Virus record (IMG/VR): IMGVR_UViG_3300044627_005797
Coordinates: 1 to 23,178 of that record
From: a virus
Direction: 5' to 3' (one strand)
Length of the DNA stretch: 23,178 bases
Part shown: one piece after another, positions 2-21,054 of the stretch
Position numbering within the stretch: the stretch's first letter is position 1
Layout of the letters: each line of letters begins with the position of its first letter
Position numbers and translations under genes: made by a program
Notes under the pieces: model-generated
Told to the model about the DNA's origin: nothing
What the model saw: only the letters and a program-made list of their open reading frames with translations
The model's database searches: none

Positions 2-745
2 CACGTCGGGCAGACCGGGATCGACTCGCTCGTCCGGGCGGCGACCGCCGACCGCGACTGGCCGTCGTTCCGGGCCGGGATCGAGGCCCTGTTTGCGGCC
101 GACGAGGGCCGGTGGGCGCTCGTGACCTTGCACCGGGCGGCGTTGACCGACGACCCGGGCCTGCTCAGTGCGACCGTCGTGTCCATCGCCGAGGCGTGCG
201 CCGAGAGCGGCTACCGTCCGGTGTGGGCGACCCACCCGAGGGTGACTCGGAACCCCGGCCACGGGGCGGCCCTGACGGCGTTTCAGGCGGCCGGTGGGGC
301 GGTGATCGACCCGCTCGGCTATCGGTCAATCGCCGCCCTGCTGCTCGCGCGCGACGGCCGAACTGATGTGTCGGGGTTCGCCGACCGTGCGATCGTCGTG
401 ACCGACTCCGGCGGGCTCGTCGAGGACGCGGTGTTCGCGAAGGTGCCGACTGTGATCGTGCGGCCGACGACCGAGCGGCAGGAACTGCTCGCGGCGTTTC
501 CGCACCGGGTCGGGATCGTCGCGCCCGGTTGGGGCGAAGGCTCGATCCGATGCGCGGTCGGCGAGGCTGTGGCGGCGACGCGGGGCTACGCGCCGACGTG
601 GCCGAGTTCCTACAGCGTGGGCCAGCCGCCCTACCCCTACGCGCCGCCGTCGGGCGCAAACGTGACCGGCGAGTTGTCGGCTTCGGCAACCGCGGCCCTT
701 GCGATCTCATACTACCTGACCGCCGGTTACGAGGCCCTTCCATGA
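2..745 (+). CDS. UDP-N-acetylglucosamine 2-epimerase (WecB-like), 3' part
   Basis: The reading frame is open from the first bases of the window, so the start lies outside; 247 C-terminal residues are visible. The family interconverts UDP-GlcNAc and UDP-ManNAc in the cytosol, supplying sugar donors for glycans. Family marks are HVGQTGIDSL at the visible start, VTLHR (the position of the LVTxHRREN motif, though the residues after HR differ), the UDP-binding TDSGGLVEDA, and RPTTERQE. The last 50 or so residues are a Pro/Tyr-rich and then hydrophobic tail that I do not recognise from the family. The stop overlaps the next start (ATGA). In a phage the product could feed glycosylation of DNA bases or virion proteins, or alter host surface glycans; the choice is inference. 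The family call is firm, the exact substrate is not. Confidence 0.85.
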   Translation, partial: HVGQTGIDSLVRAATADRDWPSFRAGIEALFAADEGRWALVTLHRAALTDDPGLLSATVVSIAEACAESGYRPVWATHPRVTRNPGHGAALTAFQAAGGAVIDPLGYRSIAALLLARDGRTDVSGFADRAIVVTDSGGLVEDAVFAKVPTVIVRPTTERQELLAAFPHRVGIVAPGWGEGSIRCAVGEAVAATRGYAPTWPSSYSVGQPPYPYAPPSGANVTGELSASATAALAISYYLTAGYEALP

Positions 746-1056
746 AACGAGAACCGAACCCCGTCGCCAACTTCGACCCGTCCTGCGTGATCCTCGTCGA
801 GACGTCGCCGGACCCCGACGCCGGGGCCTCGACCGCCCTGACCGTCGCCGTCTGCGACGGGTACACGGTCGGCTCGTCGTGGCTCGTGACCGGCAAGGAC
901 GGCGAGCAGTCGATCGTCGTGCTGCTCACCCGGCCGAGCCGGGTCGGCGTGGCCGCGCCACACCCGGCCGCTTGGCAGGGGCGGGCCTCGCTCGCGGCGC
1001 TCGCCGCCGTATCGGTCGTTGGATGGTGCTTGGCGTTCGCGAGTGTGCTACGCTGA
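742..1056 (+). CDS. Small protein with C-terminal membrane segment, unknown function
   Basis: 104 residues. The start is the ATG overlapping the epimerase stop (ATGA), which implies translational coupling. I do not recognise the family. The N-terminal two thirds is soluble-looking with beta-type patterns (CVILVET, ALTVAVCDGYTVGSSWLV). The C-terminus, from about residue 80, is a hydrophobic Ala/Val/Leu stretch ending in Arg, consistent with one membrane helix and a short tail. Its last codons (CTA CGC TGA) overlap the -10-like hexamer of the following ParB unit, so it probably ends one transcription unit. A membrane-anchored accessory protein is all that can be inferred. Confidence 0.6.
   Translation: MKREPNPVANFDPSCVILVETSPDPDAGASTALTVAVCDGYTVGSSWLVTGKDGEQSIVVLLTRPSRVGVAAPHPAAWQGRASLAALAAVSVVGWCLAFASVLR
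1045..1054 (+). promoter_or_regulatory. Extended -10-like promoter of the ParB/oxygenase/FkbM unit
   Basis: GTGCTACGCT lies 27 nt before the ParB-like ATG. TACGCT fits a TAnnnT -10, and the preceding TG fits an extended -10. Closely similar elements occur at 13313, 21671 and 22256. No convincing -35 is seen at 16-18 nt. Confidence 0.5.
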
Positions 1057-1081
1057 ACGGCAGACACCCTACGAGGTCGAA

Positions 1082-1759
1082 ATGGTTACCAAGAGCAACG
1101 CGCTGACGGTTCGGACCGTACCGTTGAGCGAGCTGGTCGCGGACGAGTCGAACCCACGCCTGCACGACGAGCGCGACCTTTCAGAAACGGCGGCGTCGCT
1201 CGCAGAGCACGGGCAGGTCGACCCCTTGGTGGTGCAGGCGGGGACCATGCGCATCGTGTCCGGCAACGGCCGGCTCGAAGCGATGCGCCGGCTCGGGTGG
1301 GTCGAGGCGCAGGTGGTCGAGATCGAATGCGACGACGTTGCGTTCCGGAAGATCTCGGTCCGGCTGAACCGGACGGGCGAGCTTGCCGGGTGGGACGCGA
1401 ACGCGATCATGGCGCTGGCCGAGGAATGGCCGGAACTCGCGGCGGGCCTGTGGTCGGACGACGAGTTGAGCGGGCTTCTCGCGGCGATGCCGGCCCCGGA
1501 GGCGTTGCCGCCGTTGGCGGCCGAGCCGGAAGCCGAGGAGCGCGTGGCGTTGGGCACGACGAAGGAAGGGACGCCAACGCACAACAGCACCGAGGACTAC
1601 CTCGCGTCGAACACCAAGAAGTTTGAGTTCTACTGCGAACAAGCGCAATACGAGGATGTGGTCCGCCGGCTGAACGTAGCGAAGAAGGGGCTCGGGGTGG
1701 AGACCAACAGCGAGGCGGTCTTGGGGCTGCTGGCTGACTACGAGGGGCGGTGCGGGTAG
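1082..1759 (+). CDS. ParB-like nuclease-domain protein
   Basis: 225 residues. The start is the ATG after a short CGAGGT Shine-Dalgarno-like stretch; a longer in-frame reading from 1019 would begin inside the upstream gene and lacks a ribosome-binding site. Residues about 10-90 form a ParB N-terminal domain: VPLSELVADESNPR, a helical ETAASLAEHGQVDPLVV, and the signature SGNGRLEAMRRLG, equivalent to the GERRxRA box. The next section (RLNRTGELAGWD) and the C-terminal VETNSEAVLGLLADYE pattern resemble phage ParB-type proteins found beside DNA modification enzymes rather than chromosome-partition ParB. There is no ParA partner and no obvious parS site. It overlaps the oxygenase gene by 10 nt, so it is likely part of the same DNA-modifying unit, perhaps as the DNA-binding or nicking component. 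That role is inference. Confidence 0.87.
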   Translation: MVTKSNALTVRTVPLSELVADESNPRLHDERDLSETAASLAEHGQVDPLVVQAGTMRIVSGNGRLEAMRRLGWVEAQVVEIECDDVAFRKISVRLNRTGELAGWDANAIMALAEEWPELAAGLWSDDELSGLLAAMPAPEALPPLAAEPEAEERVALGTTKEGTPTHNSTEDYLASNTKKFEFYCEQAQYEDVVRRLNVAKKGLGVETNSEAVLGLLADYEGRCG

Positions 1760-2565
1760 TTTCGCCGGCCGTTGGCGACGACGAGGTTCGGTCGCTCGTT
1801 GGCGTGAAGCCGCGCGGTGTGCCGGCTGGTTGGGAAAGGCTTGCGCCCCCACTCCGGTTGGTAGACGACGCGGGGGCGACCGTGGGGGTCTACTTACGGT
1901 GCGAGGGGGCGGCTACTTCGGTGCGGCGCATTCTGGCGCAAGCGACGCCGGAAGTGGCCCTGCGCACGAACGGGATGCCCGGCTGCCGACTCATCTTTGG
2001 GTCGTTGCCTCGGGCCACGTTGAGGAACGACTACTGCCGTTTTTCAGCGCATACGGCGCGCTATCCAGAACTCTACCCGGAGGCGCGGCGCGCTGTTGAG
2101 TCGGTGTCGGGGGCCTATGCGGAGGGCATGCCGGAGGCGTATGCCGCGCATTTGGCGGCTACGGGTAAGGTCTTGCCCCACTGGCGATTCGGCGACACGC
2201 CGTTCACGACGTTGAACGTCAATATCAACTTCGCCATTCCGTACCATTACGACGCGGGAAACCAGCGGGCGCACCCGAGTAATGTTCTGGTGGTGAAGCG
2301 GGGAACGCTCGGCGCAGAGTTGTTGCTCCCGCAGTACCGGGTGGCGCTTCGCATGGCCGATGGGGACTTGGTCGTGTTTCAGGGTGGCCGAGTGCTGCAC
2401 GGCGTCACGCCGTTGCGGAAGATCGCGCCGGACGCCTACAGGGCGAGCGTCGTAGCTTACACGATGCAGGGAATGGAACACTGCCTTTGCGCGGCCGACG
2501 AGTTGGTGCGCGCGAGGTCCAAACGAAGCGAGAAGGAGGCTGTATGGCGGAGCCCGAAGCACTGA
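1750..2565 (+). CDS. TET/JBP-like 2-oxoglutarate/Fe(II) dioxygenase
   Basis: 271 residues, starting at a GTG that overlaps the ParB-like stop. The core, residues about 155-250, shows an iron facial triad: YHYDAG gives H166 and D168, and LHGVTP gives H217. YRASVV follows with R231, the expected 2-oxoglutarate-binding Arg. The run from NVLVVKRG through LLLPQYRVALRMADGDLVVFQGG to the distal His is the pattern of phage and protist TET/JBP-type enzymes, which hydroxylate 5-methylcytosine or thymine in DNA. The N-terminal 150 residues are less recognisable. The gene has many A/T third positions (gta, gtt, ggt, ctt), unlike its GC3-saturated neighbours, which suggests recent acquisition. No cytosine-C5 methylase is in the window, so the substrate is open. 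Other 2OG oxygenases (protein or small-molecule) cannot be excluded. Confidence 0.75.
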   Translation: MRVVSPAVGDDEVRSLVGVKPRGVPAGWERLAPPLRLVDDAGATVGVYLRCEGAATSVRRILAQATPEVALRTNGMPGCRLIFGSLPRATLRNDYCRFSAHTARYPELYPEARRAVESVSGAYAEGMPEAYAAHLAATGKVLPHWRFGDTPFTTLNVNINFAIPYHYDAGNQRAHPSNVLVVKRGTLGAELLLPQYRVALRMADGDLVVFQGGRVLHGVTPLRKIAPDAYRASVVAYTMQGMEHCLCAADELVRARSKRSEKEAVWRSPKH

Positions 2566-3269
2566 AGTTCGAGCGTATCGAGGTGAAGCCGCCGGGCGGG
2601 ATGCCGCTTTCGTTCCTTGTCCGGCCGGGCACGAGCGACGAGAAGGCGATCGGCGAAACGGTCCAGCGCAACACCTACCTCCGGCGCGGCTGCGAGGTGG
2701 AGCCCGGCGAGCGTTGGCTCGACTTGGGGTCCAACGTCGGCGGGTTCGCGCGGCTGGCCCTCGCGCGAGGCGCTTCGTTCGTTGAGGCTTACGAGGCGGC
2801 CCCGAGCAACCTCCCCGTCCTCCGCGCCAACCTGTTCGGCAAGGCGGCGAAGGTCGTTCACGCGGCGGTGATGCCCGACAGCTACGCGGGCGACACGATC
2901 ACTCTCCACCTCGGCGCGAAGCCGCTCCAGCAGAGGCGGCATTCGGTGATGAAGCAGCGGCGCGGCGGCTCCGACGTGGTCGTGCCGGCGGTTCGGTTCT
3001 CGTCCATCGCGCAGGACGCGAACGTGAAGCTCAACGTCGAGGGGTGCGAGATCGGCATTCTTTCCGAGCTTCGCGCCCCCGTGTTCCGGAAGCTGGCGTG
3101 TGAGTGGTCGTTCGACATCGACCCGCGGATCGCCACCCTGAACGCCGTGGTCGAGAAGCTGCGCGGGTGGTACTCGCGGGTGGAGTTGTCGCGGAAGATT
3201 CCGCCGGGCGTCGAGCGATGGGAGTGGTATCCGCCCAACCTGTTCATCTACGCAAGCGGGCGACGGTAG
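2544..3269 (+). CDS. FkbM-family SAM-dependent methyltransferase
   Basis: 241 residues. The ATG at 2544 is preceded by a strong AGAAGGAGG, so I prefer it to the upstream GTG; it overlaps the oxygenase end by 22 nt. Motif I is WLDLGSNVGG with D60, followed by VEAYEAAPSNLPVLRANL, the pattern that binds the adenosine end of SAM. KLNVEGCE near residue 162 matches the KxDxEGxE signature of the FkbM (Methyltransf_21) family. Known members methylate hydroxyl groups, mostly on sugars or macrolides. Next to a base-hydroxylating oxygenase, an attractive inference is O-methylation of an oxidised base or of a sugar attached to it. The final codons and stop lie inside the terminator hairpin, marking the end of the unit. 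Confidence 0.85.
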   Translation: MAEPEALKFERIEVKPPGGMPLSFLVRPGTSDEKAIGETVQRNTYLRRGCEVEPGERWLDLGSNVGGFARLALARGASFVEAYEAAPSNLPVLRANLFGKAAKVVHAAVMPDSYAGDTITLHLGAKPLQQRRHSVMKQRRGGSDVVVPAVRFSSIAQDANVKLNVEGCEIGILSELRAPVFRKLACEWSFDIDPRIATLNAVVEKLRGWYSRVELSRKIPPGVERWEWYPPNLFIYASGRR

Positions 3270-3284
3270 GCCGTCGCCCGCTTG
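3253..3284. terminator. Bidirectional terminator hairpin between convergent genes
   Basis: A perfect 14-bp inverted repeat (3253-3266 with 3271-3284) has a 4-nt TAGG loop. The stop codon of the FkbM gene is at the loop. The next bases are TT then G-rich, so the T-tract is weak. It sits between convergent genes and can serve both strands. Confidence 0.75.
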
Positions 3285-3302
3285 TTGGCGCCTTCGCTCG
3301 CG

Positions 3303-4130
3303 CTACTCGGGCTGGATGCGGAGGTAGAAGCCGCCAGCGTTCTTGCGGACGCCGGCGTAGCAGCCGGCCTCGGCGCGGGCGGCGCGGGCGGCGGGGGTGA
3401 TCCAGTAGGGGGGCTTGCAGGCGCTCGCGCAGAGGCCGGCCGCCTTGATCGCTTCGAGCGGGACGTTGAAGCCGCCGGCAGAGGCGTACTCGGCCGCCTG
3501 CCAACCCAGCAAGAGCGCCGCAAGGCTCTTGGCCTTGTCGCCGGAGCCGGCCGTCGCCGTGGCGGCCTTCGGGGCCTTCTCGACCCCGAGCGCGATCTCC
3601 CCGGCCCGCACCCGCAAGGCGCGCAGGACGCTGGCGCGGCAGGACCCGCGGACCTCGGCCTCGTGGGCGGCCCGGACCTCGTCGAGCGTCGCGTAGGTGG
3701 GCTCGGCGGCGACCACGGGGGCCGGAAGGACCGCGAGGCCTTCGACGACGTCCTCGGCCGGGGACGGCGCGACGAAGTCGGTGAGGGGAACGCTGGCCAT
3801 CCCGCCCGCGCCCTTCGGCTCGTCGGCGACGATCCCGAAGCTCTCCGGCTCGACCACCGCGGCCGGGGCCTCGACCTCGTCGAAGCCGCTGCGGAGCGCC
3901 TCGATCGCCCGCACGCCGCCGAACGCGGTGTCGTGGTCGACCTCCCACGCGCCCTCGCCGCCGACTTCGAGGGCGGCGTATTTGGTGCCGTACAGGGCGA
4001 TGCGGGCCGGGACCCCGCCGACCGTGCCCTCCTGCGCCACGACCGCGTCGTACATGGCGCGGGCCGTCTTGTCCGACGGGTTGCGGGCGATCTTCGCGGC
4101 GGGGGCTTCGGTGTTCTTCTTGCTGGGCAT
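3303..4130 (-). CDS. Leftward protein of unknown function (275 aa)
   Basis: The start is the ATG at 4130 on the minus strand, preceded by CACGGAGAACAAG with a GGAG Shine-Dalgarno. The longer frame from 4175 would run through the control region shared with the other leftward gene, so I reject it. The N-terminus is Lys/Ala-rich (MPSKKNTEAPAAKIAR), then comes a compact domain with GGVPARIALYGTKYAALEVGG to about residue 80. An acidic Ala/Val/Pro-rich linker (about 95-150) leads to a helical C-terminal part with Cys residues (GLCASACKPPYW, GCYAGVRKNAGGFYLRI). I do not recognise the family. Its leader matches that of the gene at 20088-20405, so the two are probably co-regulated, perhaps at a different time from the rightward genes. 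Confidence 0.75.
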   Translation of the reverse strand: MPSKKNTEAPAAKIARNPSDKTARAMYDAVVAQEGTVGGVPARIALYGTKYAALEVGGEGAWEVDHDTAFGGVRAIEALRSGFDEVEAPAAVVEPESFGIVADEPKGAGGMASVPLTDFVAPSPAEDVVEGLAVLPAPVVAAEPTYATLDEVRAAHEAEVRGSCRASVLRALRVRAGEIALGVEKAPKAATATAGSGDKAKSLAALLLGWQAAEYASAGGFNVPLEAIKAAGLCASACKPPYWITPAARAARAEAGCYAGVRKNAGGFYLRIQPE

Positions 4131-4235
4131 CTTGTTCTCCGTGGGTTGTTGAGCGCGGGGTCCTTCCCGCCCCAATCATGTAACCGCCTATCGGATAGCG
4201 TAAAGGAAGCGGAGCGCAGATAGTCGAAAAAAGTT
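4128..4235. promoter_or_regulatory. Divergent control region, copy 1
   Basis: This 166-nt intergenic area separates the leftward gene from the rightward operon. It shares ordered blocks with 20403-20505: a 16-nt start-site block (4128-4143), TCCTTCCCGCCCCAATCA and following bases (4161-4187), CTATCGG (4188-4194), a 30-nt variable spacer, and CGAAAAAAGTT (4225-4235). CTATCGGATAG here is an inverted repeat with 5-bp arms. The spacing from block two to the A-tract is identical in both copies, which argues for a bound protein or a special promoter. Confidence 0.65.
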
Positions 4236-13312: not shown

Positions 13313-13322
13313 GTGCTACCGT
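13313..13322 (+). promoter_or_regulatory. Extended -10-like promoter of the portal gene
   Basis: GTGCTACCGT (TACCGT at 13317-13322) lies 22 nt before the portal ATG, in a GCCGCCGTGCTAC context shared almost exactly with 21671 and 22256. This position rules against the GTG at 13321 as the portal start. Confidence 0.5.
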
Positions 13323-13344
13323 GGCCGAACGCCACGGAGCCGCG

Positions 13345-16300
13345 ATGTCCCGAGCCGCCATGACCAGCCCGACCGTCAACCTCGCGAAGCGGGGCGGCGA
13401 CGTCGTTCCGTTCCCCGCGTCGAACGGCGCCCGCCTCTCGCAGTGGGGGGCGTGGGGCGACGCCGGCGAGGCGCTCGAACGCGCCCGGCGCGGGCACGCT
13501 CCCGGCTTCGTCGGGATGTCCGCGGCCGGGCGAATCTTCCCGGTCAGCACGATCCTCTCGCAGCGGCTGCTCACGCCGATGCAGGCGTGGCGAATCTACA
13601 CCACGAGCCCCGACGTTCGGTTCTGCGTCGACTCGATCGTGCGCCGGGTGGCGACGTGGGACTGGCGGATCGTGCCGACGGTCGACCCGCGAGACAAGCG
13701 ATACGAGACGCTCGCCAGCGTCGCGGCCGACACGACCGCGTGGCTCGCCGCGCCGAACCTCGACGGGCTGACGTGGCAGGAGGTCTGGACCGAGGTCGGC
13801 ATCGACCTGCTCGTCCACGACGCGGGCGCGCTCGAACTGGTCGCCGGCAAGGGCGGGGTTCTGGAGGAGGTCGCGCCGCTCCCCGGCCGCGAGGTCTACC
13901 CGCGCGTCAACGAATACAACCGCACGATCGAGTACGTCCAAGACCCGATGGGCTACGCGACCGCCGGCTCCGGGTACGCGGGCGGGAGCGACACGGCGGG
14001 CACGCCGGTCGTCCGGTTCGACCCGCAGGAAGTGCTCTACCTCCGGCTGTTCCCGAACACGACCGGGCCGCTCGGCCTGCCGCTGATCGAATCGTGCTTG
14101 AACGAGGTCGTGTCGGTCCTGCTTGCGTCCGAGCAGGCGATGTCGCTCCTCGACGCGAACGAGATTCCGCCCGGCCTGCTCGTGCTTGGCGGCATCGCCG
14201 GGGACGCGCTGGAGGTGGCGAAGTCGGACCTGCAGCGCATGAAGGGGCGCGAGGGGAAGCTCCGCGTGATCGGCGGCGAGCACGGGGCGGTCGACGCGAA
14301 GTGGCTCGAACTGCGCCGGGCGATCCTCGGCGTGGAGATGAAGTCGATCGTCGACGAGGCGCGCCGTGCGATCTGGCGCACGTTCGGGATCATGCCGATC
14401 GAGGCCGGCGTGACCGACAACACGCCGCGCGCGGTGGGCGAGGTCATGGCCGAAATGTCGAACTCGCACCTCCTGCGGCCGATCCTCGAACTGCTCGCGG
14501 GCAAGGTGAACGCGCGCCTGCTGCCGAGGGTCGTCGCGCCGCGGTTCGCCAAGCTCCTGCGGTTCGAGTTCGACTTCGACCAGAAGCTGAAGCCGGACGA
14601 GGCCGCCAAGCAGCGCGACTCCAAGCTCGGCGCGGTCAAGGTCGGCGCCATGACCCTGAACGAGTGGCGCGCGTCCGAGCGCCTGCCGCTCTACGGCGCC
14701 GAGGGCGACGTCCCGATGATCTTCGGCTCCGACGGCACGCTCCGGCGGCTGGTCGACGCGGTCGTGGAGCCGGTCAAGGCCGAGGTGCCGCCAGCCGAAG
14801 GGTCGGGCGAGGCCGGCGGCGGGAACGGTGGGCCGGGCGACGTCGAGGACGAGCCGGACCCCGAACCGCCGAAGGGCGGCAAGGGGAAGGGCGACGGTGG
14901 CGGGGTCAAGGACACCGACGGCGAGACGGGCGAGGACGGCGAGGCCGCGGCGCCCGGCAAGAGGTCGAGCCGGGCCGAGGCGCACGTCCACGGGCTCGGT
15001 TGCCGACACGACCACGCGCCCGACGTCCGGACGTGGCCGAACCCGGAGAACGACCTGCCGAGCGACTGGCAACCCGAGGGCCGGTTCAAGGGGCTGCGGA
15101 CGATCGACCTTCCCGAAGCCGCGCGCCAGATCGTAGCCTACCGGGACGCGGTGCTCCCGCGCTACCGGGACGCCTCCGCTGCGATCGCCGAGGCGGTCGC
15201 CCGCCACCACGAGCCGGGCAGCGAGGCGCGCGACGACGCCGATGCCTCCCGCAAGGCGGTGGACGGCGCGCTCGCCAAGCTGCGGTCGACGTGGTCCGCG
15301 TCGACCGAGTCGATCTACGTCGATGCGGCGAAGGCCGGACGGACGGCCGCCGCGACGTGGACGGAGGGCTCGTCGCCCGACCTCGCCGCCGCCGCTGTGG
15401 CCGGGCGGGAGTACCACGAGAAGGCGGTCGGCTACCTGACCGCGCAGGGCGGGCTCCTCGAAACGATGGGCGCGCTCGCCGAGATCGCAATCGCCCGGCT
15501 CGACGGCGCCGCCATGCCGGCGCGCTCGGCGATCGCCCGCGCCGAGGGCGAGGCCGAGTCGTCCCTGTTCGACGACCTGCTCGCCTCCATCGGAACTGCC
15601 ATCGGGGCCGAACTGCTCGCGTCGCTCGTGTCCGCCCTCACCGCCTCGAAGAAGCCGACCAGCGCCGCCGCCATGCTCGCGGCGCTCGGGCCGGCCAGCA
15701 CGAAGGCCGAGGCCGAGGCCGCGCTTGCCGCCGTGCTCGGCGCGCAGGCCAATCGGATCGACAACTGGTCGGGCAAGGTGGTCGACCTGACCACGAAGCA
15801 GGCGTCGGCGCAGGCAACCGAGGACGCCAACCGGCGCAACGCCGACCCGAACCGGAACCCGGAGGACCCGGCCGAGTCGTGGTTCATCGAGAACGTGGAC
15901 GCCGGCGGCCGTGACGAGTGCGACGAGTGCTTAGACGAGTCGCGCAAGGGGTTCGTCGCGGTTGCGTCGGTGACGTCGTGGCCGGGCGAGCGCGTTTGCG
16001 AGGGCCGGTGCCGTTGCGTGGCCGTCTGGCACACGGCGGCCGAGGTCGCGGCCGGGACCGCCGTGTCGCTCGCCGCCAACGGCAGGGCCGGCGACGCCGC
16101 GCCGAACACGCGGGCGGACAAGTATGCCGACATCGACTTCTCGCCGCCGGCCGGCGTTCGAGCCGAGTGCCGCAAGGGCGTGGACTGGTACGAGGCCGGC
16201 GAGGGCGGCGACGGGCTGAAGCCTGAGACGGTTCGCTGGGCGCGCAAGTTGCGCGACGGTGACGACATCACGCCCGCGAAGGCCCGCAAGATGCGGGCGT

Positions 16301-16473
16301 GGCTCGCTCGCCACGAGGTCGACAAGGACGGAACCGGGTTCTCGCCGGGCGAGGACGGATACCCGTCGCCCGGCCGTGTGGCGTGGGCGTTGTGGGGCGG
16401 CGACCCCGCGGTCGGCTGGTCCTCGAAGCTCGTCGACCGAATGGACGCGGCCGACGACGGAGGGGCCGAATAG
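13345..16473 (+). CDS. Portal protein fused to head-morphogenesis-like and C-terminal accessory domains
   Basis: 1042 residues, about twice a normal portal. GGAG (13336-13339) lies 5 nt before the ATG. Residues about 30-480 are a phage portal: TSPDVRFCVDSIVRRVATWDWRI, PREVYPRVNEYNRTIEY-type wing strands, GLPLIESCLNEVVSVLLASEQAM, and the helical WRTFGIMPIEAGVTDN segment. Portals form the ring at the capsid vertex through which DNA passes. A Gly/Glu/Lys-rich linker (about 482-560) ends in a His/Cys-rich HVHGLGCRHDHAPD. Residues about 570-900 are helical and close with CDEC and CEGRCRC, the Cys pattern of SPP1 gp7/MuF-type minor head proteins. From about 927 a separate domain (DIDFSPPAGVRAEC, ITPAKARKMRAWLARHEVDK, GRVAWALWGGDPA) is one I have seen in phage structural proteins but cannot assign a function. 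No separate MuF-like gene is present, which supports a true fusion. Confidence 0.9.
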   Translation: MSRAAMTSPTVNLAKRGGDVVPFPASNGARLSQWGAWGDAGEALERARRGHAPGFVGMSAAGRIFPVSTILSQRLLTPMQAWRIYTTSPDVRFCVDSIVRRVATWDWRIVPTVDPRDKRYETLASVAADTTAWLAAPNLDGLTWQEVWTEVGIDLLVHDAGALELVAGKGGVLEEVAPLPGREVYPRVNEYNRTIEYVQDPMGYATAGSGYAGGSDTAGTPVVRFDPQEVLYLRLFPNTTGPLGLPLIESCLNEVVSVLLASEQAMSLLDANEIPPGLLVLGGIAGDALEVAKSDLQRMKGREGKLRVIGGEHGAVDAKWLELRRAILGVEMKSIVDEARRAIWRTFGIMPIEAGVTDNTPRAVGEVMAEMSNSHLLRPILELLAGKVNARLLPRVVAPRFAKLLRFEFDFDQKLKPDEAAKQRDSKLGAVKVGAMTLNEWRASERLPLYGAEGDVPMIFGSDGTLRRLVDAVVEPVKAEVPPAEGSGEAGGGNGGPGDVEDEPDPEPPKGGKGKGDGGGVKDTDGETGEDGEAAAPGKRSSRAEAHVHGLGCRHDHAPDVRTWPNPENDLPSDWQPEGRFKGLRTIDLPEAARQIVAYRDAVLPRYRDASAAIAEAVARHHEPGSEARDDADASRKAVDGALAKLRSTWSASTESIYVDAAKAGRTAAATWTEGSSPDLAAAAVAGREYHEKAVGYLTAQGGLLETMGALAEIAIARLDGAAMPARSAIARAEGEAESSLFDDLLASIGTAIGAELLASLVSALTASKKPTSAAAMLAALGPASTKAEAEAALAAVLGAQANRIDNWSGKVVDLTTKQASAQATEDANRRNADPNRNPEDPAESWFIENVDAGGRDECDECLDESRKGFVAVASVTSWPGERVCEGRCRCVAVWHTAAEVAAGTAVSLAANGRAGDAAPNTRADKYADIDFSPPAGVRAECRKGVDWYEAGEGGDGLKPETVRWARKLRDGDDITPAKARKMRAWLARHEVDKDGTGFSPGEDGYPSPGRVAWALWGGDPAVGWSSKLVDRMDAADDGGAE

Positions 16474-19134: not shown

Positions 19135-19170
19135 ACCGCGCCGAACCGCTCGACGTTCGACAGTGGCCGG

Positions 19171-19176
19171 TATACA
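19171..19176 (+). promoter_or_regulatory. -10-like hexamer of the HNH gene
   Basis: TATACA, the closest match to TATAAT among the intergenic regions, ends 19 nt before the HNH ATG. Transcription would begin near 19183, inside the loop of the hairpin that follows. A matching -35 is not clear. Confidence 0.5.
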
Positions 19177-19192
19177 ACCTCTCTCGGAGGTT
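19176..19192 (+). promoter_or_regulatory. Hairpin sequestering the HNH ribosome-binding site
   Basis: AACCTC (19176-19181) pairs perfectly with GAGGTT (19187-19192) around a TCTCG loop. The Shine-Dalgarno GGAGG (19186-19190) is almost entirely inside the 3' arm. Read-through RNA from the capsid gene would fold this way; RNA started at the local promoter would lack the 5' arm. Confidence 0.55.
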
Positions 19193-19195
19193 CGT

Positions 19196-20023
19196 ATGCC
19201 GGCCACTCGCTCGTTGGAGGAACGGTTCTGGTCGAAGGTCAACAAGGACGGGCCGATCCCGACCGGCCACCCCGAATACGACGGGCTCGGACCGTGCTGG
19301 ACGTTCAATGGCGGGACGGGGAACTCGTCGATCGCGCTGCCGATGGCGCACAAGCGCGGCCCCGACGAGCCGAAACGTCAACTCGCGTGGCGTTACCTAT
19401 GGGAGTCGATTCACGGGCCGATCCCGACCGGGCTGGTGATCCGGCACAAGTGCGACGGTGGAAAGCCGCCCGTCCTCTGCGTCAACCCCGATCACCTCGA
19501 ACTCGGAACGCAGGCGGACAACTGTGACGACCGGTATCGCCGCCGGACGGCGCCGAACCGTCCGATCCTTTCGTCGATGGCCGAGGCGATGATCGAGCTT
19601 CACGCGCTCGGCGCGCCGGTCGAAACCATCGCCAAAGCCGCCAACGTCGAGCCCGCTGCGGTCAACCATGCGATCTACTCCGGCCGCTCCGGCGTCGCGC
19701 CGAAGGCCGTCCGCCGTGTGCCGCCGATCACGCCGGAGCAACTCGCCGACGTGGACGCCCGCCTCATGGCCGGGGCGACGCTCCGTCAGGCGTCGATCGC
19801 GACCGGGATCAACTACACGCGCCTCGCGCGCGCCCTCGCGGCCCGCGGGACGCCCTACACCCGGAGGCCGTTTCTAAACGATCAGGAGCTTCTCGTCGCC
19901 CACGCGATGGCCGCCGAGGGGAAGTCCACGAACGCGATCGCGGTCGCGCTCGGGAAGTCGTGGCCGCAGGTCCGAAAGACCCTCGCCGAACACGGGATCG
20001 GGCCGATCTTCACCCCGACCTAA
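19196..20023 (+). CDS. HNH homing endonuclease with three helix-turn-helix-like repeats
   Basis: 275 residues; GGAGG at 19186-19190 sets the ATG. The N-terminal 120 residues match free-standing HNH endonucleases: CWTF near the start, WRYLWESIHGPIPTGLVIRHKCD with H84 as candidate catalytic His, then CVNPDHLELGTQADN, the classical CxNPxHLxxGTxxDN ending. Three helix-turn-helix-like segments follow: GAPVETIAKAANVEPAAVNHAI, cut short here as VETIAKAANVEPAAVNHAI, GATLRQASIATGINYTRLAR, and KSTNAIAVALGKSWPQVRKT, likely for DNA target recognition. Such genes nick or cut DNA at a cognate site and spread by recombination. It sits just after the capsid gene, a common landing place, with its own promoter and terminator. 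Confidence 0.88.
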   Translation: MPATRSLEERFWSKVNKDGPIPTGHPEYDGLGPCWTFNGGTGNSSIALPMAHKRGPDEPKRQLAWRYLWESIHGPIPTGLVIRHKCDGGKPPVLCVNPDHLELGTQADNCDDRYRRRTAPNRPILSSMAEAMIELHALGAPVETIAKAANVEPAAVNHAIYSGRSGVAPKAVRRVPPITPEQLADVDARLMAGATLRQASIATGINYTRLARALAARGTPYTRRPFLNDQELLVAHAMAAEGKSTNAIAVALGKSWPQVRKTLAEHGIGPIFTPT

Positions 20024-20529: not shown

Positions 20530-21054
20530 ATGCACGCTGAGCCCCTGCACTTCGTTCGCCACGCCTTCGGCTGGTTCGACTCCCGCGGCGAGGCCGTGAT
20601 CCGCGTCCTCGAAATCGGGTCGCAGGACATCAACGGCTCGCCTCGGTCGGCGTCGCCCGGCACGGTCGCCAAGTGGATCGGGGTCGACGTGTTCGACCGG
20701 CCCGGCGCCGATTGGGTCGGGCTCGCCCACGAGTTCCCGGCGAAGGGCTGGGACGGCGAGCCGTTCGACGCGCTGGTGTCGTGCGAGTGCTTCGAGCACG
20801 ATCCGTTCTGGCGCGAATCCCTCACCGCCTGCGTTCCGCTCCTGCGGCCCGGCGGGCTGATCGCGATCACGGTGGCGACCGGCGACCGACCGCCGCACGG
20901 GCAGGAGGCGGACACGCCGACGCCGGGGCACTACGCGAACGTGAGCAAGGCCGAACTCGTCGCCCACCTCGCCGCCCTCGGTTGCGTGGAGATCGCAGCG
21001 CAGGTCGAGCGGCAGAATCAGGACCTCTACGCTCGCGCCGTTCGCGGGGGCTGA
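20530..21054 (+). CDS. Class I SAM-dependent methyltransferase
   Basis: 174 residues. The ATG directly follows a -10-like hexamer; no ribosome-binding site is seen. Motif I is VLEIGSQDINGSPR, then WIGVDVFDRPGADWVG (the acidic residue binding the SAM ribose), FDALVSCECFEHDPFWRESLTACVPLL (motif post-II with the helix) and RPGGLIAITVATGDRPPHG, as in Methyltransf_11-type enzymes. No target-recognition or DNA-MTase catalytic motif (such as DPPY or PCQ) is visible, so the substrate may be a small molecule, sugar or protein. It may belong with the sugar-nucleotide genes. A second methyltransferase, of the FkbM type, lies at 2544. Confidence 0.85.
   Translation: MHAEPLHFVRHAFGWFDSRGEAVIRVLEIGSQDINGSPRSASPGTVAKWIGVDVFDRPGADWVGLAHEFPAKGWDGEPFDALVSCECFEHDPFWRESLTACVPLLRPGGLIAITVATGDRPPHGQEADTPTPGHYANVSKAELVAHLAALGCVEIAAQVERQNQDLYARAVRGG

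Follow-up and report, generated by a model that had tools for sequence, protein, structure and literature searches.

Phage systems that combine TET, a C5-methyltransferase and a TET-associated glycosyltransferase reportedly act on 5-methylcytosine. The actinophages Tonitrus, Wooper and CaiB carry a ParB-TET-ADDT-5hmU kinase cassette, and PMC11955845 assigns the Tonitrus ParB-TET with ADDT and kinase to thymidine hypermodification. Here we analyzed the entire IMG/VR virus record IMGVR_UViG_3300044627_005797, which is 23,178 bases in length and may be a fragment; it is referred to as the window. The window encodes a ParB-like protein, a TET/JBP-like oxygenase and an FkbM-like methyltransferase. 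The trio probably constitutes a phage DNA hypermodification cassette, in which the TET would hydroxylate the 5-methyl group of a pyrimidine, thymine being the most likely one. The methyltransferase would then cap the product to give a 5-methoxymethyl base.

Organization and products of the locus

As originally predicted, the three genes are real and overlapping (Table 1); the overlaps are 10 nt (ParB/TET) and 22 nt (TET/FkbM), and GGAGG precedes the FkbM start codon (2544). The G+C content of the trio is 66.7%, compared to 71.8% elsewhere in the window; at such high G+C, long antisense ORFs were disregarded. The trio had also been described as a self-contained cassette, bounded by its own −10-like element and a terminator hairpin. 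The hairpin is indeed perfect, and its region folds with a z-score of −4.94; however, neither a sigma-70 promoter-like nor a terminator-like site came up in a consensus scan of positions 700–3700. Another ORF upstream stops at 1056, leaving 25 nt to ParB, and the hairpin sits between FkbM and a convergent minus-strand ORF (3303–4175). For these reasons, the promoter of its own and the self-contained nature of the cassette are unproven. Lying between convergent genes, the hairpin is possibly a bidirectional terminator, although the scan does not score it as terminator-like.

Table 1. Features of the trio locus (window coordinates)
Feature	Position	Strand	Support or remark
ParB/Srx-fold protein, 225 aa	1082..1759	+	ParB_N 1.3e-5, phrog_620 9.5e-28; TET partner
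TET/JBP 2-oxoglutarate dioxygenase, 271 aa, GTG start	1750..2565	+	Tet_JBP 2.2e-17; pLDDT 94.1; TET2 Z 19.1
Iron motif H166-x-D168	2245..2253	+	59/59 aligned TETs
Distal iron ligand H217	2398..2400	+	59/59 aligned TETs
R231 (2-oxoglutarate), Y237 (~TET2 Y1902), M239 (~TET2 H1904)	2440..2466	+	Alignment with TET2; last position not His in 59/59
FkbM-like SAM methyltransferase, 241 aa	2544..3269	+	NCBIfam fkbM_fam; phrog_28597 4.4e-27; pLDDT 92.7
SAM-binding motif D60-LGSNVGG	2721..2744	+	D60, G62, N64, G66: 62/62 viral, 32/32 genomic rows
FkbM motif KLNVEGCE	3027..3050	+	K162, E166, G167, E169: 62/62 viral, 32/32 genomic rows
Subfamily signature EWSFD, Ser189 vs generic His	3102..3116	+	Ser in 62/62 viral rows; His in 30/32 genomic rows
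Perfect 14-bp hairpin, arms 3253-3266 and 3271-3284	3253..3284		FkbM stop codon in 4-nt loop

The oxygenase matches Tet_JBP with 63.2 bits (cut-off 34.9), and its structure model superimposes on TET2 with an rmsd of 3.7 over 248 aligned residues. The first 26 Foldseek rows and the first 16 VIA rows are all TET/JBP; AlkB, the next fold, reaches a Z of only 13.4. Both sequence and fold thus bear out the assignment to TET/JBP, rather than to a 2-oxoglutarate family acting on other substrates than nucleic acids, and the expected iron triad and R231 are present and invariant in all 59 aligned TET proteins. Its family and fold, together with the preserved catalytic residues, lead us to predict that the protein oxidises a methyl group on a nucleic-acid base. 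When the 59 TET rows were taken singly in an independent Pfam check, 57 matched Tet_JBP with an E-value of 0.001 or below; in several relatives the score is under the Pfam cut-off yet significant (26.8 in MED4-184 and 19.6 in Wooper, for example). When the window TET was the sole query, scanning gave no confirmed viral relative; the TET-based scan was built from a four-row alignment, six rows being too diverse. We discarded the first TET tree, in which two long branches joined the window and L072, and built another from which L072 and L148 were omitted. There too the window branch is long (3.87), which makes the precise position of the window uncertain.

The methyltransferase scores 39.1 against the NCBIfam FkbM model (TIGR01444, cut-off 37.7). 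With the Pfam model PF05050 it remains below the cut-off (14.6 vs 22.7), which is passed by its relatives in L006, L072, L073, L081, L172, L173, L182, L250 and HTVC112P. Both FkbM motifs that had been predicted are present and follow the DxGxNxG and KxDxEGxE patterns, with Asn164 for Asp in the window. The FkbM-family His after the K-D-E-G-E motif is absent; Ser189 takes its place in all 62 viral rows of the alignment (the window and 61 representatives at 90% identity, L148 left out and two fusion proteins reduced to their last 245 residues). By sequence, the viral methyltransferases are a divergent FkbM subfamily, and because of this Ser their acceptor or mechanism may differ from FkbM precedent. 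Fold comparison within the families of the VIA list ties many methyltransferases of other acceptors, Trm5 being the best (Z 13.2) and FkbM 2py6 reaching 11.6; apart from one spermine synthase, the 50 Foldseek rows listed are SAM-methyltransferase folds of a generic kind. The Ser substitution and the presence of TYW2/Trm5 among the nearest folds are consistent with an enzyme that moves another group (carboxymethyl from carboxy-SAM, or aminocarboxypropyl) onto the hydroxymethyl base, or that targets another atom of the modified base; PMC12783734 describes CmoX as a phage DNA enzyme transferring carboxymethyl. However, the FkbM motifs are kept and the fkbM_fam score is above its cut-off, and we regard a different transferred group or atom as quite unlikely. 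O-methylation of a hydroxyl is the predicted reaction.

The ParB-like protein contains the predicted GNGRLEA signature and matches PHROG ParB families. Its ParB_N score is 25.5 bits for the whole protein (Pfam cut-off 26.3) and 27.5 in the genome search, just above; against the ParB/RepB/Spo0J partition model TIGR00180 it is far below the cut-off (24.8 vs 58.45). It is possibly the DNA-locating subunit of the system.

Association of the oxygenase and the methyltransferase in viral contigs

Two FkbM-based scans of viral contigs, covering the best 80 of 219 and the best 80 of 116 relatives, gave 158 distinct contigs, nearly all of them fragments, and TET is present in the locus of 156. With L148 added from the TET-based scan (best 80 of 186 relatives), TET and FkbM share a locus in 157 of 159 distinct contigs from these best-80 scans. 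Contigs present twice (L175, L177, L178 and L187) were removed before the tally; the 163 loci that include them fall into 62 clusters at 90% identity. L148 holds a kinase, an ADDT below cut-off and a very distant FkbM, all in one contig, and L195 has a kinase match below cut-off. The original prediction had suggested a survey of homologous neighbourhoods for conservation of the three-gene order: the families do recur together, but the order varies. ParB-FkbM-TET is the commonest arrangement (128 of the 159 contigs from the best-80 scans), followed by ParB-TET-FkbM (21) and TET-FkbM (4); two contigs show FkbM-TET at the contig edge, two ParB followed by TET and FkbM in a single ORF, and two FkbM only. 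On the TET tree, the four rows with FkbM after TET require at least three separate changes. Pfam detects both domains in the fused proteins, which are encoded by L172 (523 aa) and L173 (535 aa); these came from the later scan, and no ORF joining two of the three families was found in the loci of the first FkbM scan or the TET scan. Near generic genomic FkbM genes, neither TET nor ParB occurs in any of 32 fetched stretches. Chance is a very poor explanation for the pairing of TET and the methyltransferase.

The two FkbM-only contigs (L182 and L250) have no PF12851. Both encode a PF00303 protein whose nearest match in the PDB is CMP 5-hydroxymethylase (1.9e-25 and 5.4e-25), whereas the best thymidylate synthase reaches 3.1e-14 and 4.8e-10; the two proteins are also under the cut-offs of every matching NCBIfam thymidylate-synthase model. 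PF00303 was found in none of 44 TET-bearing records (26 and 18). Since the TET-less contigs carry a hydroxymethylase-like protein and the TET-bearing records do not, the methyltransferase seems to accompany any enzyme that makes the 5-hydroxymethyl base, as judged from two related contigs; a further scan for TET-less relatives returned the same two only. Taken together, the neighbourhood, the fusion and the presence of a hydroxymethylase-like gene in place of TET show computationally that TET and methyltransferase are functionally coupled.

The same replacement bears on the order of the reactions. If the methyltransferase added a methyl group that TET then oxidised, the two genes could abut either way round, as they do, and uracil-C5 RNA methyltransferases are among the PDB profile matches. 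Against this reversal, which we consider very improbable, a hydroxymethylase-like protein stands in for TET in both TET-less contigs; no invariant or near-invariant column of the methyltransferase is Cys, and at the four Cys-richest columns (84, 81, 68 and 66%) the window has another residue; and inspection by eye found no DPPY-like motif at the usual place.

Of the 80 loci of the TET scan (best 80 of 186 relatives), 76 have ParB upstream of TET; in the remaining four, TET starts at the contig edge. In 74 loci ParB is within 50 nt of TET or overlaps it. The few cases at hand indicate that the partner of ParB is TET and not the methyltransferase: L182 and L250 have no ParB in their 12.7-kb loci by our own profile either, and, to judge by these two contigs, ParB may serve the oxygenase. 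Four TET-FkbM loci also have no recognisable ParB. In an independent Pfam check, ParB_N is above cut-off in 20 of 22 records; Wooper and Tonitrus are the exceptions, and as their annotated ParBs escape PF02195, this model misses some ParBs. Because MED4-184 proteins served as seeds for our own ParB and TET profiles, these are partly circular for marine loci.

Target base and proposed modification

Based on family, fold and catalytic residues, the TET/JBP enzyme with its ParB-like partner would first hydroxylate a pyrimidine 5-methyl group, that of thymine most likely, to yield 5-hydroxymethyluracil. The FkbM-like enzyme would then methylate the new hydroxyl from SAM, and the resulting 5-methoxymethyl pyrimidine would presumably protect the phage DNA against host nucleases. 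The original proposal of hydroxylation followed by capping holds insofar as oxygenase and methyltransferase act as one unit (neighbourhood, fusion and substitution); that the methyl goes onto the new hydroxyl, we infer.

The evidence leans towards thymine as the target, a choice that the original proposal had not made. An ADDT-like gene lies downstream in 38 of the 80 TET-scan loci (best 80 of 186 relatives), and related TETs sit with ADDT and a P-loop kinase, which we count for thymine. So do we count the residue aligned with TET2 H1904, which is Leu in 48, Met in 5, Lys in 5 and Arg in 1 of the 59 TETs (Met239 in the window) and His in none; His1904 and its NgTET1 equivalent are presumably the 5mC contact. 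Alternatively, a host or phage C5-methyltransferase could make 5mC, TET could oxidise it to 5hmC, and the methyltransferase would yield 5-methoxymethylcytosine. The TET family has precedent on 5-methylcytosine; in Prairie, a TAGT-like glycosyltransferase match follows ParB-TET (24.4 bits, below the cut-off of 27.5); and PF00145 is encoded by 6 of 35 FkbM-bearing records (4/21 and 2/14), so that a cytosine target is possible in some phages. However, among the phage records, PF00145 is absent from all three trio-bearing isolates tested, from the window record and from Prairie, and the 5mC-contacting His is missing throughout; the cytosine route is on the whole unlikely.

A target other than phage DNA (RNA, a host metabolite or a surface polymer) is hardly credible. 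Polyketides and sugars are frequent substrates of FkbM enzymes, but by fold the oxygenase is closest to DNA dioxygenases, related cassettes hold the DNA hypermodification enzymes ADDT, kinase and Mom, and the trio genes of the isolates sit within a few genes of terminase.

The trio would extend phage DNA hypermodification of the TET-based type by a new form of tailoring. Our literature searches found neither FkbM with phage JBP nor a phage FkbM methyltransferase with a dioxygenase, although the trio may have been predicted before, and methoxymethyl does not occur in the papers listed. More broadly, we see an even chance that many marine and other environmental phages carry undescribed 5-(methoxymethyl)uracil or -cytosine, made by TET and a dedicated divergent FkbM, sometimes fused, with a nucleotide hydroxymethylase as the second feeding route. 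Because such a hydroxymethylase would feed the same methyltransferase, capping may end two routes to 5-hydroxymethyl pyrimidines. If true, a small methyl ether would join the known phage DNA disguises, with a complete two-enzyme pathway and a natural fusion enzyme. The trio is present in many uncultured viruses and in the cultured MED4-184, MED4-117 and HTVC112P, which makes the predicted base directly testable.

Comparison with related and known cassettes

Prochlorococcus phages MED4-184 and MED4-117 carry the same three families, abutting and adjoining terminase. Their FkbM is 38% identical to that of the window, and P-HS2, examined for FkbM only, gives the same match; different from the window, their order is ParB-FkbM-TET, and their TET is just 22% identical. 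The MED4 locus scores 23.4 (ParB_N) and 26.8 bits (Tet_JBP), significant though under the Pfam cut-offs, and is annotated as 'DNA methylase', hypothetical protein and 'queuine tRNA-ribosyltransferase'. We rejected the last label: five proteins so or similarly labelled match Tet_JBP when scanned. In Pelagibacter phage HTVC112P, gp17-gp18-gp19 follow the window's order, ParB-TET-FkbM, with all three above Pfam cut-offs; this phage is more distant, with EYSFT in FkbM for the window's EWSFD and gp18 annotated as DnaJ/SNF2. Our analysis corrects these annotations: queuine tRNA-ribosyltransferase, DnaJ/SNF2 and hypothetical protein had stood for TET/JBP genes, and DNA methylase for a ParB-like gene.

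The 5mC TET-glycosyltransferase systems are likewise said to place a tailoring enzyme after TET; different from them, the window record, a fragment, has no C5-methyltransferase, and no TAGT was found among its 20 Pfam-scanned ORFs. With the actinophage cassette, the window shares the ParB-TET core and a position at the left end before terminase, and the TETs of Tonitrus and Wooper are 33 and 32% identical to its own. The window record, which may be a fragment, has neither 5hmU DNA kinase nor amino acid:DNA transferase; an FkbM-like methyltransferase is found where the actinophage cassette has kinase and ADDT. Only 1 of 28 FkbM-bearing records has a kinase (the same record has a weak ADDT), compared to 6/7 and 5/7 comparison records, five of the seven having been chosen for kinase/ADDT annotation or clustering. 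These comparisons show computationally that the methyltransferase fills the tailoring place held in related phages by kinase and amino-acid:DNA transferase, glycosyltransferase or Mom, and in this view ParB-TET is a core to which exchangeable tailoring enzymes are added.

The locus in the window

The window spans an entire IMG/VR virus record of 23,178 bases, which encodes terminase, portal and major capsid genes; the trio lies near its left end as three overlapping genes (see table). All ParB, iron-triad and FkbM motifs named in the original prediction were found in them. The trio had also been given its own promoter element and a terminator hairpin. A scan of positions 700–3700 gave zero sigma-70-like sites; the hairpin exists, and its predicted folding is far stronger than that of shuffled sequence, but it was not terminator-like in that scan. 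The G+C content of the trio is 66.7%, versus 71.8% for the remainder of the record, and the lowest value among 89 same-length windows to its right is 67.9%. This composition would fit arrival as a module, short of proof.

Features of the window and of related viral contigs (L-numbers)
Feature	Location	Strand	Length	Remark
UDP-GlcNAc 2-epimerase-like protein	window 122–745	+		C-terminal portion, at contig left edge; PF02350 9.2e-12
ParB-like protein	window 1082–1759	+	225 aa	first gene of trio
TET/JBP dioxygenase	window 1750–2565	+	271 aa	second gene
FkbM-like methyltransferase	window 2544–3269	+	241 aa	third gene
Hairpin	window 3253–3284			around FkbM stop codon
Portal protein	window 13321–16473	+	1050 aa	very long; C-terminal extension matches phrog_2859
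HNH endonuclease with helix-turn-helix	window 19163–20023	+		
Second, SAM-methyltransferase-like ORF	window 20530–21054	+		weak match
TET/JBP proteins	including L006:8669–9454, L003:776–1744, L285:4094–5002			labelled queuine tRNA-ribosyltransferase (also PHROG 6059) or DnaJ/SNF2
ParB-like protein	L006:7330–7971			publicly labelled DNA methylase
P-loop 5hmU-kinase-like protein (phage Nigel gp3)	L003:1786–2382			PF18751 1.2e-73; PHROG 800; annotated terminase small subunit
ParB-TET, then Mom protein	L131:5890–7958			Mom ~0.4 kb on; PF25680 9.6e-58
ParB-TET-ADDT(weak)-FkbM-unknown-kinase	L148:4965–9296			single run; this phage combines the two tailoring branches; FkbM very divergent
Genes downstream of ParB-TET	L116:6687–7643 (cluster also L104, L112, L115), L162:6224–7282			representatives without Pfam match

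The predicted structure of the oxygenase (pLDDT 94.1) matched TET/JBP enzymes best, as the original prediction had supposed, and not another 2-oxoglutarate family. The first 26 Foldseek rows are TET/JBP enzymes only; by VIA-align the first 16 rows are TET/JBP, with TET2 foremost (Z 19.1, rmsd 3.7, 248 residues), followed by AlkB (Z 13.4). A profile of 59 relatives retrieves TET2 (2.3e-5) and NgTET1 (2.3e-4) from the PDB, and 57 of the 59 match Tet_JBP singly (E <= 0.001). The iron residues, the 2-oxoglutarate residue and Tyr237 are unchanged in all 59 proteins. At the position of TET2 His1904, which we take to contact 5-methylcytosine, the same proteins carry Leu (48), Met (5), Lys (5) or Arg (1), never His. 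If that contact is as assumed, base recognition in the phage family would differ from that in TET2, in keeping with thymine.

The FkbM-like protein retains both the SAM motif and the KxDxEGxE motif. Ser189 is present in 62/62 viral FkbM rows, whereas 30/32 genomic rows have His at that site; Trp131 and Arg132 occur in 61 and 62 of the 62 viral rows, the window protein having Arg-Arg. The distant member from HTVC112P likewise carries Ser and Trp-Arg. These differences mark the viral FkbMs as a dedicated subfamily, and they are likewise the main ground for caution over the exact reaction. Fold comparison of the model (pLDDT 92.7) does not single out one methyltransferase type.

Pairing of TET with FkbM

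Viral contigs were searched twice with the FkbM family, taking the best 80 of 219 and the best 80 of 116 relatives. TET was found in the fetched locus of 156 of the 158 distinct FkbM contigs so obtained. Together with L148, a contig retrieved solely by the TET-based search, these 159 contigs comprise ParB-FkbM-TET (128), ParB-TET-FkbM (21), TET-FkbM (4), FkbM-TET (2, each at the edge of its contig), ParB with one fused TET+FkbM ORF behind it (2) and FkbM alone (2). The pairing is conserved in two gene orders, and that of the window is the less common. TET and FkbM share a strand in every locus, with a gap above 100 nt in 13/155 unfused loci. At 90% identity the FkbMs of 163 loci (four contigs counted twice) fall into 62 clusters, and at 70% into 37, so the contig count does not come from one clone. 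As a control, neither TET nor ParB was found in the fetched stretch beside any of 32 generic bacterial or archaeal genomic FkbM genes. The trio is present in three isolate records, MED4-184, MED4-117 and HTVC112P. Phages that infect Prochlorococcus or Pelagibacter, bacteria poor in restriction systems, are thus among its carriers (L006, L007, L285).

In the fusion contigs L172 (523 aa) and L173 (535 aa), TET is N-terminal and FkbM C-terminal in a single protein directly after ParB. They are the top two scores of the window-type FkbM scan (best 80 of 116 relatives), and the same layout in two different contigs makes assembly error unlikely.

Contigs without TET and the modified base

TET would oxidise a phage DNA base first, and the FkbM-like methyltransferase would then cap it; its substrate would be a 5-hydroxymethyl base, made by TET or, in TET-less phages, another way. 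We tested this reasoning on the two TET-less contigs, which are related, L283 and L284 (72.9 and 74.3 kb; FkbMs 47% identical), in which PF12851 was not found. Both encode a protein of PF00303, a family that includes pyrimidine hydroxymethylases beside thymidylate synthases, versus 0/26 TET-bearing records in the same search and 0/18 further ones in a second. The closest PDB match of both is CMP 5-hydroxymethylase, outscoring the best thymidylate synthase by 37 (L283) and 49 (L284) bits; both fall under the cut-offs of every matching NCBIfam thymidylate-synthase model, and a thymidylate-kinase-like gene adjoins each. PHROGs labels both as thymidylate synthase, so their identity as hydroxymethylases is only a prediction. 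No 5hmU kinase was found in either contig.

Neighbourhood, fusion and substitution together support well a coupled pathway in which TET acts before the methyltransferase; the chemistry originally proposed, O-methylation of the new hydroxyl, we infer. Thymine is the favoured base, because no C5-methyltransferase was found in the three trio-bearing isolate genomes tested, thymidine-hypermodification enzymes occur in related cassettes and the TET2 His is lost. Cytosine is possible, as 6/35 FkbM-bearing records have a C5-methyltransferase, although the isolates and the lost His speak against it.

The ParB-TET core

In the TET-based scan (best 80 of 186 relatives), ParB lies upstream of TET in 76/80 loci, overlapping it or within 50 nt in 74; in the other four, TET begins at the contig edge. 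ParB_N scored above the Pfam cut-off in all 19 trio-bearing records tested, window included, and in neither of the actinophages Wooper and Tonitrus. Since ParB precedes nearly all TETs and none was detected in the two TET-less contigs, it appears to partner the oxygenase, for which it may locate DNA. Four TET-FkbM loci among the 159 contigs have no recognisable ParB, contrary to a strict rule. Nothing in the analysis pointed to nicking by ParB. Seven loci (L102, L108, L115, L116, L126, L128, L129) have a tandem pair of ParB genes before TET.

An ADDT-like gene follows ParB-TET in 38 of these best 80 of 186; elsewhere a kinase, FAD-type protein, glycosyltransferase, Mom or genes of no assigned type follow. 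In a 35-record search, kinase and ADDT occurred in 6/7 and 5/7 comparison records, a set partly picked as positive controls, and each in 1/28 FkbM-bearing records, both in L148. Ten additional trio-bearing records had no kinase above cut-off and one weak match (L195). On the TET tree, FkbM-before-TET forms a single clade, FkbM-after-TET requires at least three changes, and the ParB-TET-FkbM contigs L092/L093 are sister to the Mom-bearing L131. ParB-TET forms a core with an exchangeable place for tailoring genes. The L116-cluster and L162 genes are candidate tailoring enzymes of a new type, going by position and sequence. The public annotations of the TET/JBP and ParB-like proteins in the table are wrong or uninformative.

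Among TET-based systems for hypermodifying phage DNA, the trio represents a new tailoring variant; a narrow literature search, with the most relevant papers outside its reach, returned no printed account of it. The actinophage version is named a thymidine hypermodification system in PMC11955845 and nucleotide modification enzymes in PMC9302106. For ParB domains alongside DNA methyltransferases, PMC12783734 states the function as unknown. One of the nearest printed parallels to ParB-TET is DpdB with DpdA, as described in PMC12839542.
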